Below are positions 15,526 through 20,633 of a stretch of 64,000 nt of DNA, piece after piece. Every line of letters begins with the position of its first letter. The first letter of the stretch is position 1. This stretch comes from Glaciozyma antarctica PI12. Its lineage: Eukaryota > Basidiomycota > Microbotryomycetes > Kriegeriales > Camptobasidiaceae. Both the position numbers and the translations under genes were made by a program. The notes under the pieces are model-generated. The model searched no databases and was not told the DNA's origin. It was given only the letters and a program-made list of their open reading frames with translations. Location: the NCBI GenBank assembly GCA_002917775.1, contig KZ627162.1:22961-86960 (forward strand), given 5' to 3'.

Positions 15526-17812
15526 TCAGCACTCGAAGCTTGCGATCTCAACATCGAGGTCGGGCGACGCAATTTCGCCCGCGACGGCGCGAACGACGTT
15601 GGCGAGCTCAGTCGGTCCGCAAGCTGCGAGAAAGTTAGCATCAAAGAGACGGGTCTAAATGAAGAAGAGCGACTCGCCGACGACGAAGCTGCGATCAGGA
15701 GAATGCGCCACCACTTCGCGCACGATGTCCGCAACATCAGGTCGACCGGAATGGATGACGGCGCCACTCCCAGGAAGGCTCGCAGGCGTCGAAGCTCCAA
15801 GAAACTTCGCCTTGACGACTTCGTCCTCCGACTTGCGTTCCTCGTCCCCTTCTTGCGAGGAACAAGCGGAGGGACTCGTGTCGGGGCGAGTGACGAAGAG
15901 GTCGATGTGGAGGTCAAGCCCGGCGACGTCGGCGGCTGCGCGAACTTCTTCGAGAGTCGTATCGATCCAAGTGGCTTGGTCTTGAGTGAAGTAGAAGTCA
16001 GCGAAGCACCGAGGGAGAAAGAGAAAAGGCGCACTGAGGTGGTGAATCGCCCAAACCAGTCGGACTTGCGTTGCTGTCGCGCACTTCTCGACCGCCTTCT
16101 GCGCGATAGTGGCCAAGATCGACGAGACGTGTGTGATTCCTGAGCCACCAGCGACGAGAAGGACGGAATCATATTCCTCCGCACGAGGATCATGTCCATA
16201 AGGACCTTCAACGCTGACAGTGACCTTTGTTCCTTCGCCGACCATCTTCTCGCTAGCGAGGATATGATCCGCAAGCGCGCGAGTGATGCCATCCTTGATC
16301 CTGAGGACGAAGCGAAGTCCGTGGTCGTCGCGAGGTGCCGAGCGAGGAATGTTGCTGATCGAGAACGGGTGCGTCTGGCCGTAAAGCCACGGCTTCTTAA
16401 CGGTACGGTCGGTACCCCCAGAACGAGAGGTAGCAGTGCTGCCCTGCGCTCCAGGTTCCCGGTGGGGAAGGGAATGTGGTGGAGCATGGCGCCGTGGCAG
16501 ACCGTCGCGGTCGCTTGCAGGAGAGGACGTCGGAGGACGAGTCGAGAGTGGAAGAGGCCGGAGAGGTGGCGAACGATGCGAGTGACGCGCTCAAAGACCC
16601 ACAAAGCCGTGGCGGCGTAGACCCAGTTCATGCAGATGGGGCGATCTGGAGAACGAGGGTCAGAAATTGCGAAGAGCGGTCGAAAGGAGAAGAACGAACG
16701 GTACCACATTCCAGCGAGCATCATCGCAGCGCCGAGGACGTGCAGGATGAGGAACAGCTCGTACCATCGACCTCGCATCCAGCGAAGGCTGAACACGAAG
16801 AGCATGGTAGCTCCAACCATGGCCTGCGCGCGAGGGATCAGACAGCGAAAATGTTCAGAAAGAGGGGCGACGTACGACGATACCCATCTTGAAGTAGAGC
16901 TCCGAGTACTCCTCCTGGAGCTTCGCAGGGTTCGTCCCTTGGAGGTACTGGCCGAGTGGAAAAATCAGCGACGCCATGGAGTGGAGTAGGAATGGACTCA
17001 CGAATCCGATAAAAGCGAAGGTGTGGACGAACGACTCGAGGAAAACAATCCTGCCGAGGACCTTATGTTGGAAGCGAACCTCCTGGTACGCAATGCCTAA
17101 CTTCTCTGATCAGCTTCGCTCTCGACGGCGATCAGAAGTGCTTACCAGTGAGGAAAGACACGAGATTGTTGCGACCGGCGAGAGCGTAGAGAATAGGGAA
17201 GTTGATGACTGCGATGCGACCAATTCGTTCCGAGAAAGCTTTGACGATAGCGCTCCTCCCAGCGTCCCAGTGCAGATCCGCCTGATCGCAACCACAACCT
17301 GGCTCGCGTCAAAATACTTCAACACGCAGCGACGACTCACGAGACAGAACCCGATGTTGACGGCGGAAACTGCGGTGGTGAGGAGGAGGCGAGACCAAGT
17401 CCAGTCGGCGCCGAGGGGTCGACCAACCGACCTCCCCGCCCAAGCGTCAAAAGCGAGGAAAGCACGAACGACGACGAAGGGTTGTTGGCGGGTCGAAAGC
17501 GTCGTTGTGGTGTTTCCGCTGCCTTTCTCGCTGTTTGAGACGGACGCCTGGAGCGAAGACTTGCCTCGGCGAGAGAGGTAGCGATGAGTCCTGAGAACGA
17601 TGTTGCGGATGATGAGGAAGCCGATGATGCCAATGAAGATGTACTGGTAGTCGTACGTGATCCCTGCCGAAAAGCCAAGTCAGCGACGTCGACGAGGAAG
17701 GGAAGAAGAAAAGAAAAACCGTACGGGCGAGGAGGAGCTTCGCACGAGCTTTTGCAACCCTGGCAGACATCTGAGCGGGGGTTTGCGTCGAGGAGCCAGC
17801 GGGGGGTGCCAT
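15526..17812 (-). CDS. Ferric reductase (FRE family, NOX-like)
   Basis: A plasma-membrane-type ferric/cupric reductase that passes electrons from NAD(P)H through FAD and haem across the membrane. Helices include YDYQYIFIGIIGFLIIRNIV and LRWMRGRWYELFLILHVLGA, the latter carrying the haem-ligand histidine region. The FAD site HPFSIS lies across an exon junction. The NAD(P) site includes VEGPYGHDP, VLLVAGGSGITHV and the terminal CGPTELANVV, ending with ASFEC. The intron before CGP fits only if its donor is GC (GCGAGT) rather than GT. Start MAPPAGSSTQ is at 17812; an in-frame ATG at 17890 would add 26 residues. It is transcribed away from the MFS gene. Iron regulation is expected from the family but not shown here. 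Confidence 0.85.
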
Positions 17813-19330: not shown

Positions 19331-19877
19331 ATGCCCGCCATCGCCCCCATCAAGGGAATGCTCGCCAAGGTCCGTTGCCCCGCCTCCCTCCGACGCGCAA
19401 GCAGATGGAGCCACGTTAGCTGACTCCTTCCTCCGCCCTCCCTCTTTCTGTCCCCACAGCACGTACGTCGTCCACCAGGAGCCTTCCTTGAGAGCGCTCA
19501 AGGAGACGAACGACGGCAGCTGACTCCTTCCCTCCCATCTCCCCTCCTCCTCTCCCAACAGACCATGACCCACCTCTCCATCGGCATCTTCGGAGGTCTT
19601 GCCGCAGGCTACGGATACTGGTGAGTCCCCCCACCCGGTCTGAACGGTGCTCGACTGGCGGTGACCAGGCCCCCGGAAACGTCCGGCACAAAGCTGATCT
19701 GCCCCCCTCCCCTCCTCAGGCACGGCATCCACCTCCCCAAGAGTCAGTCCCACCTCTTCCCTGCCTCAATCTGCCCTCCCATCGCCGCTCTGCTAACTGT
19801 CCCCCCGCTGCCAAGTTGCTCTTAGGGACGCATATTATATCCGTGCGGCGAAGGAGAAGGAGGCGGCCTCGGCTTGA
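19331..19877 (+). CDS. COX9: Cytochrome c oxidase subunit VIIa (yeast Cox9-like), copy A
   Basis: A small single-helix subunit of mitochondrial complex IV. Spliced, it gives about 58 residues, matching the family length of 55-60. Exon 1 (19331-19369) encodes MPAIAPIKGMLAK, like yeast Cox9 IAPITG. A 3-nt exon CAC follows, then the membrane helix SIGIFGGLAAGYGYW, then HGIHLPK and the C-terminal tail RDAYYIRAAKEKEAASA. Each of the four introns has its own CTGAC/CTAAC-like branch site except where noted as short. It lies directly upstream of a paralogue with the same exon plan, on the same strand. The protein needs no cleaved presequence in the known family. Confidence 0.82.
19460..19462 (+). other. 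Predicted 3-nt micro-exon (CAC) in COX9 copy A
   Basis: The triplet CAC is bounded by a CACAG acceptor and a GTACGT donor. Separate branch-site motifs (TAGCTGAC before, CAGCTGAC after) sit in the flanking introns. The equivalent place in copy B has the same CAG|CAC|GTACGTCGT layout. It adds one His and keeps frame. Confidence 0.6.
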
Positions 19878-20156
19878 AGAACGACTTGCGGGGGTTTGCT
19901 GTAGAACGGGCAGTATCGAAGGAATTCAAGAGGGGAGTTGGATCCATGAGAAGGAGTTGTCTGAGCTGAACTCGGCGGTGGGCCATCTGCTCGGATGCAC
20001 TCAACCCTTCTCGCTCGCACCGAACCCCCCAACTTCGACCCGCCTGCTCTCCTCCCCCACCCCTCTAACATCTATCTAGGCCTACACAGCCTTACACCTC
20101 CAGATCCAGCGCACCACAAGCCACTCTTGTCCACCAACAACCCCCCACCTCAAGCA

Positions 20157-20633
20157 ATGGCCGTTATCCCTCCCATCCAAGGAATGCTCAAGCGCGTACG
20201 CCTGTTCCTTCCGCGCAGATGTAACAACGGCAGCTAACCCCAACCCCTTCTCTCCCCCCTCCTCCTGACCTCCTCCTCAACAGCACGTACGTCGTCGAGG
20301 ATTCATCCGACCTCTCGGACCTTCCGACGGTCTCAGCAGCAGCTAACCCAGGGCATCCCCCTTGCAGGCGTTCCAGCACATCACTATCGGCATCGTGTCG
20401 GGCCTCGTCGCTGGCTACACCTTCTGTACGTCCGGTCATCGAGGAAGGCGGGGCAGAGGAGGGACGGAGGACGGCCGCTGACGACTTTTTGCTCTAGGGT
20501 ATGGCTTCCGCATGCCTGGTGGTACGCTCTTCGCTCTCTTTGGTATCTGTGGGGGCTGACTGCCGTTCTCGAAAAAGTCCACCGCAGAGACCAGCATTAC
20601 GTCGACCTCGCGAAGGCCAAGGAGTCCGCTTGA
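20157..20633 (+). CDS. COX9: Cytochrome c oxidase subunit VIIa (yeast Cox9-like), copy B
   Basis: A tandem paralogue of the preceding gene. Exon 1 (20157-20195) encodes MAVIPPIQGMLKR. It is followed by the same 3-nt CAC exon, the helix ITIGIVSGLVAGYTFW, YGFRMPG, and the tail VHRRDQHYVDLAKAKESA (about 59 residues). YGF(R/H) and RRD match the yeast Cox9 pattern better than copy A does. The two copies share intron positions but differ clearly in protein sequence, so the duplication is not recent. Two expressed versions could allow alternative complex IV isoforms, as in mammals where subunit VIIa has tissue forms; that is inference. Confidence 0.85.
20284..20286 (+). other. Predicted 3-nt micro-exon (CAC) in COX9 copy B
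   Basis: CAC lies between a CAACAG acceptor and a GTACGTCGT donor. Branch-like CAGCTAAC occurs in both flanking introns. Reading through the downstream intron meets a stop (TAA), so it cannot simply be a longer exon. Confidence 0.62.

Follow-up and report, generated by a model that had tools for sequence, protein, structure and literature searches.

Each of two tandem genes for a Cox9-like subunit of cytochrome oxidase in Glaciozyma antarctica PI12 very probably contains a constitutive micro-exon of three nucleotides, CAC, which would encode His14, the residue directly before the membrane helix. This reading is drawn from the DNA sequence and from comparison with proteins in the PDB: the codon restores the length of Cox9 relative to seven PDB relatives, it lies at the sole AG-NNN-GT of the interval that separates exon 1 from the helix exon, and an identical stretch of intron surrounds it in the two genes. 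The original prediction of a conserved 3-nt micro-exon in both paralogues is thereby upheld. Below, we describe the genes, the evidence for the codon from protein length, from the divergence of the paralogues and from the splice signals, and the other readings that can be placed on the same sequence. Gene coordinates are those of the window, the whole stretch of 64,000 nucleotides that was analysed.

The tandem Cox9 genes

Gene A (19331-19877) and gene B (20157-20633) both lie on the plus strand and are each modelled with five exons for about 60 codons, giving proteins of 61 and 59 amino acids, respectively. The spliced models are single open frames with stops at 19875-19877 in A and 20631-20633 in B. 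In gene A, exon 1 (MPAIAPIKGMLAK, 19331-19369), which is supported by the spliced model and by homology, precedes an intron 1 of 90 nt (19370-19459; donor GTCCGT, branch-like CTGAC at 19420-19424, acceptor CCACAG), the micro-exon CAC at 19460-19462 and an intron 2 of 99 nt without an in-frame stop (19463-19561; donor GTACGTCGT, branch-like CTGAC at 19520-19524, acceptor CAACAG). The helix exon (19562-19620) and exon 4 (19720-19742) follow, both from model and homology, and then the last exon with its stop (19816-19877). Gene B is laid out in the same order: exon 1 (MAVIPPIQGMLKR, 20157-20195; spliced model and homology), an intron 1 of 88 nt (20196-20283; donor GTACGC, branch-like CTAAC at 20234-20238 and CTGAC at 20265-20269, acceptor CAACAG), the micro-exon CAC at 20284-20286, an intron 2 of 81 nt with an in-frame TAA (20287-20367; donor GTACGTCGT, branch-like CTAAC at 20343-20347, acceptor TTGCAG), the helix exon (20368-20425) and exon 4 (20498-20521), again from model and homology, and the last exon with its stop (20578-20633). 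In each gene the micro-exon is placed by motif search, by the spliced model, by a gain in homology, by a sequence block shared between the genes and by splice scores. The last introns (19743-19815 and 20522-20577) end in AAG instead of CAG or TAG, a feature common to both paralogues, and the last exons are accordingly placed by homology.

Both predicted proteins match seven distinct sequences in the PDB that bear the name Cox9 or VIIa, over approximately 54 residues, with best E values of 3.8e-8 for A and 3.5e-8 for B. This near full-length similarity indicates that the genes probably encode fungal Cox9 (cytochrome oxidase subunit VIIa), as had been proposed when they were first described as tandem VIIa paralogues. 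A Pfam match does not define the assignment: no family was found at an E value of 1 with any of the four versions of the proteins (A and B, each with and without the histidine). A search of the genome with protein B for a third Cox9 copy returned three matches, all of them pieces of A or B; copies split into very short exons could escape such a search.

Protein length and the histidine

The need for the extra residue was assessed by scoring the A and B proteins, with and without His14, against the PDB Cox9 sequences. All seven score higher when the histidine is present, by 3.0–3.5 bits for A and 3.3–4.0 bits for B; judging from the listed alignments, the seven represent about three different proteins, and so they are not seven independent tests. 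When the histidine is left out, a one-residue gap opens exactly at the micro-exon point in B and two residues before that point in A, as seen for each gene in the two alignments listed out of seven. With it, B aligns free of gaps in all five of the alignments listed, and A does so in two of five; in the other three, two gaps that offset each other appear later in the alignment. The relatives listed have arginine (KRR) in the His14 column. The length of Cox9 thus appears to call for the residue encoded by CAC, at a gain of 3.0–4.0 bits.

The codon could instead belong to a cassette micro-exon that is included or skipped, perhaps according to condition, to give Cox9 with or without His14. We consider this improbable, although it is the strongest of the rival readings. 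Skipping CAC preserves the frame in both genes, which makes a cassette form possible, and would leave an exon-1-to-helix intron of 192 nt in A or 172 nt in B with intact splice sites at both ends; the cost would be one residue and only 3–4 bits. A condition-dependent fungal micro-exon is described in one report (PMC11121469). Against this, the conserved column argues for inclusion, since the listed PDB relatives have a residue there and all seven score better with one. The joined introns would also be long compared with the median of 64 nt for introns predicted in this genome (lengths having been searched up to 140 nt), and the strengths of the donors, given below, favour use of the micro-exon.

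A related and still less probable proposal is that both Cox9 isoforms contain a regulated switch, in which skipping would delete, in frame, one residue from a basic site where the membrane helix begins, and retention of the second intron in copy A would provide a further form with 33 extra residues. Were this so, cytochrome oxidase would be tunable by one amino acid. The frame relationships are as originally described: reading on past CAC meets a TAA in B, and intron 2 of A is open in frame for 33 extra codons. Retention of intron 1 leads to a stop in both genes. That retention of intron 2 in copy A would be non-lethal is conjecture.

A shared block in otherwise diverged introns

The paralogues have diverged strongly, as was claimed for them at the outset: an ungapped comparison of the first 57 residues gives 27 identities, 103 of 171 coding bases agree, and introns 3 and 4 align between the genes no better than shuffled sequences do (scores of 8 and 9; shuffle maxima of 11 and 12). 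The composite intron, by which we mean the whole interval from the end of exon 1 to the start of the helix exon, with CAC inside it, gives a score of 31, above the maximum of 23 from 200 shuffles. Within these otherwise drifted introns lies an exact shared block of 17 bases, ACAGCACGTACGTCGTC; the longest match in 2000 dinucleotide-shuffled intron pairs was 14, no pair exceeding this. There may be further noncoding likeness between A and B beside the block, given that their upstream flanks (200 bases) score 22 and so reach the shuffle maximum of 22.

The arrangement CAG|CAC|GTACGTCGT lies in the composite intron of A and in that of B, so that the lone CAC codon between an acceptor CAG and a donor, at an equivalent point of the protein, is indeed seen in both genes. 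The 15-mer CAGCACGTACGTCGT that spans it (19457-19471 in A, 20281-20295 in B) has two exact copies in the 19.98 Mb genome, both of them in the tandem genes, where search counts may be lower bounds. A separate search that allowed up to two mismatches gave three matches compared with 0.11 expected, the third having two mismatches and being unrelated to the Cox9 layout. Outside this genome, single scans for the same layout in two collections not meant for fungal genomes gave no match in viral_contigs and one in genome_contigs; the latter (L048) was taken as chance, being on a bacterial contig in which tblastn detected neither A nor B at an E value of 10. The micro-exon is probably older than the duplication that produced A and B. 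It had been suggested that the shared layout points to selection or to a strict ancestral constraint; special selection goes further than is needed, because a codon and two splice sites that are both required to work are constraint enough.

It is very unlikely, and the least probable of the readings, that CAC is no exon at all, with the 172–192 nt as one intron and the block as a conserved intronic element, either a binding site for a factor or a relay for recursive splicing. In its favour, ACGTACGT is palindromic, the 12-mer CACGTACGTCGT has 16 copies in the genome compared with one for the reversed control, and of the 14 copies elsewhere, eight lack an intron-like stretch downstream. The remaining six have a branch motif and a YAG 45–140 nt downstream and thus look like donors, and for this reason a transcription-factor site was rejected despite the over-representation of the 12-mer. 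Moreover, the block itself consists of an acceptor, a codon and donor-like sequence, and without the histidine A and B would both be one residue shorter than their PDB relatives. A zero-length relay needs AG|GT directly joined, with no exon bases, and in both genes three bases intervene.

Splice signals around the codon

The splice signals were judged against introns predicted in 190 kb of the genome by requiring a GT donor, open coding-like flanks, a CTRAY motif and a YAG end. This gave 146 introns, a noisy set that is limited to lengths of 40–140 nt, to YAG ends and to the CTRAY motif; percentiles are calculated on 145, after the single intron of the Cox9 region had been removed. For the last introns of the Cox9 genes, with their AAG acceptors, the limitation to YAG ends makes percentiles meaningless. 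The leading donors in the set of 146 were GTGCGT (22), GTTCGT (12), GTGAGT (9) and GTACGT (8), the last count being inflated, in favour of the micro-exon donor, because most loci in the set were fetched by patterns containing GTACGT. The window alone has 40 predicted introns apart from those of Cox9, and here the commonest donors were GTGAGT (4), GTTCGT (3) and GTGCGT (3), with GTACGT found once. GTACGT is therefore an acceptable donor in this organism and not the commonest one. The base at position -1 is C in 45 percent of the 146 introns, and this frequency makes CAC before a donor ordinary here. In the noisy set of 40 from the window the same position holds 18 C, 15 G and seven A, unlike the usual G.

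By these measures the micro-exon donor CAC|GTACGTCGT stands at the 78th percentile. No other GT in the composite intron of B scores as high, and in A only the donor of exon 1 ranks above it; compared with the exon-1 donor it is stronger in B, where the latter is at the 46th percentile, and approximately equal in A. In A, the micro-exon acceptor ranks first among the 13 AG sites of the composite intron. That of B is weak (28th percentile, seventh of nine AG sites), which is a point in favour of the cassette reading. Branch-like CTGAC or CTAAC motifs are present in all four flanking introns, as had been noted for the introns on both sides of the codon. Each composite intron has a single AG-NNN-GT, the one at CAC, and in both genes a one-codon shift is impossible for the donor of exon 1 and for the acceptor of the helix exon. 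An acceptor and a donor thus appear to flank CAC in both genes, with a branch motif in each adjoining intron and a weak acceptor in B.

A YAG followed after three bases by a donor is found at 36 places in the 190 kb, and introns are possible on both sides at three of these, namely A, B and one other. The third candidate, at 17080-17082 on the minus strand, was rejected as it reads as ordinary coding sequence, in a gene that we take to be ferric-reductase-like. For spacings from zero to nine bases, the number of places with possible introns on both sides was 7, 2, 0, 3, 3, 1, 1, 2, 0 and 3; with zero to seven places at the other spacings, a spacing of three is not enriched, and A and B account for two of its three places. 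In random segments of 192 and 172 nt, the strict pattern arose in 73 and 49 of 200,000, and the loose pattern in 70 and 54, respectively, these rates being upper bounds since the segments include overlaps with A and B. Across the genome, three pattern searches for close acceptor-donor pairs found 42, at least 114 and 12 matches, compared with 13, 25 and 1 for a reversed-pattern control, which is a loose control because its dinucleotides differ from those of the pattern. Among the matches listed, at least four copies of CTGACGAGAACCTCAGGTACGT are identical (C10, C13, C14 and C16) and one has a single change (C15); this is probably a dispersed repeat.

Possible order of splicing and implications

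Fungal introns are short and are recognized intron by intron. If the constitutive micro-exon is real, each of the introns of 81–99 nt would be recognized singly, by intron definition, and both would be removed in turn. The three bases CAC would both follow the first acceptor directly and fill positions -3 to -1 for the second donor. As they form the exon side of that donor, the second donor would be complete, and preceded by exon 1, once intron 1 is gone. It is probable that U1 and the factors that bind the acceptor (U2AF) cannot occupy both sites at once, which suggests sequential removal of the introns.

Should transcripts confirm the models, two paralogues of one fungal housekeeping gene would have retained a constitutive 3-nt exon, and this yeast would be a handy organism in which to study the splicing of exons too short to hold both sites simultaneously. 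Gene-finding software could easily miss such exons. The case would also serve as a warning that the annotation of short nuclear genes whose products are mitochondrial may be wrong by one residue.

Other probable tiny exons in the genome

The pattern searches yielded 20 scored loci, of which four were inspected (L025, L031, L039 and L085); the other 3-nt candidates are L087, L088 and L090. The top-scored 3-nt candidate, L085, proved on reading to be an ordinary exon running to its donor. A Cdk1-like kinase gene has a predicted 6-nt exon, AAATTC (Lys-Phe; L039:1526-1531), between introns of 59 and 70 nt, and the protein that includes it (...ADIVK-KF-TYQLIKG...) aligns without gaps to solved Cdk1 over 77 residues in the two alignments listed out of 67 matches. 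A maltose-acetyltransferase-like gene (L031, about 1250-1750) has a 24-nt exon and then a 7-nt exon, ATCTTAG, which is required for the frame; its product (...NTT-ILD-CADV...) aligns without gaps over 70 and 69 residues in the two alignments listed out of 11 matches. An 11-nt exon (GACTACCCCAT), placed by reading, is presumably present in a permease-like gene (L025, about 1465-1590). The genome thus seems prone to tiny exons, those of 6 and 7 nt having homology in their favour.

Comparison with known ultra-short exons

Exons of 1–3 nt are already on record in plants, animals and fungi, and the CAC of Cox9 would be a further case. The original statement that exons of 3 nt come close to a physical limit is too strong in view of published 1-nt exons (PMC4674806, PMC8831610, PMC12940212). 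No report of a micro-exon in Cox9 was found among the entries listed from the open literature searched, a body that leaves most subscription journals outside; the matches for Rhodotorula concern bglA (PMC9142197) and P450 genes (PMC1184071).

In Arabidopsis, APC11 has a constitutive 1-nt exon that had been missed in annotation and was established with cDNA and reporter constructs (PMC4674806), and constitutive 1-nt exons are described more widely for plant APC11 and VPS55 (PMC8831610). As proposed for Cox9, a constitutive, ultra-short coding exon lies between two introns and is needed for a conserved protein. The plant exons are of 1 nt, obligatory for the frame and proven by cDNA and reporters, whereas the putative exon of Cox9 is of 3 nt, neutral for the frame and read from sequence. 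Micro-exon 8 of Drosophila homothorax (PMC7392893) is likewise exactly 3 bp, one codon. It is alternative, and its three bases are the start of a 48-bp alternative exon; in Cox9 B, by contrast, reading on meets a stop and a longer exon is unsupported.

Among fungi, basidiomycete bglA genes have micro-exons, the smallest of which, in the text available, are 5 and 6 bp (PMC9142197). These too are from basidiomycetous yeasts with many short introns and several micro-exons per gene; they differ in being at least 5 nt long and in another gene, the Cox9 exon being of 3 nt. In Fusarium, a 1-nt exon is reported, with transcript support, in 20 orthologues of one P450 family, CYP621A (PMC12940212). This case is also fungal, and there too the argument was built on a motif conserved in the protein and on an intron of excessive length. 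It concerns 1 nt, extends across Fusarium and includes transcripts, whereas the Cox9 micro-exon is of 3 nt and is read from the DNA of two paralogues in one genome.
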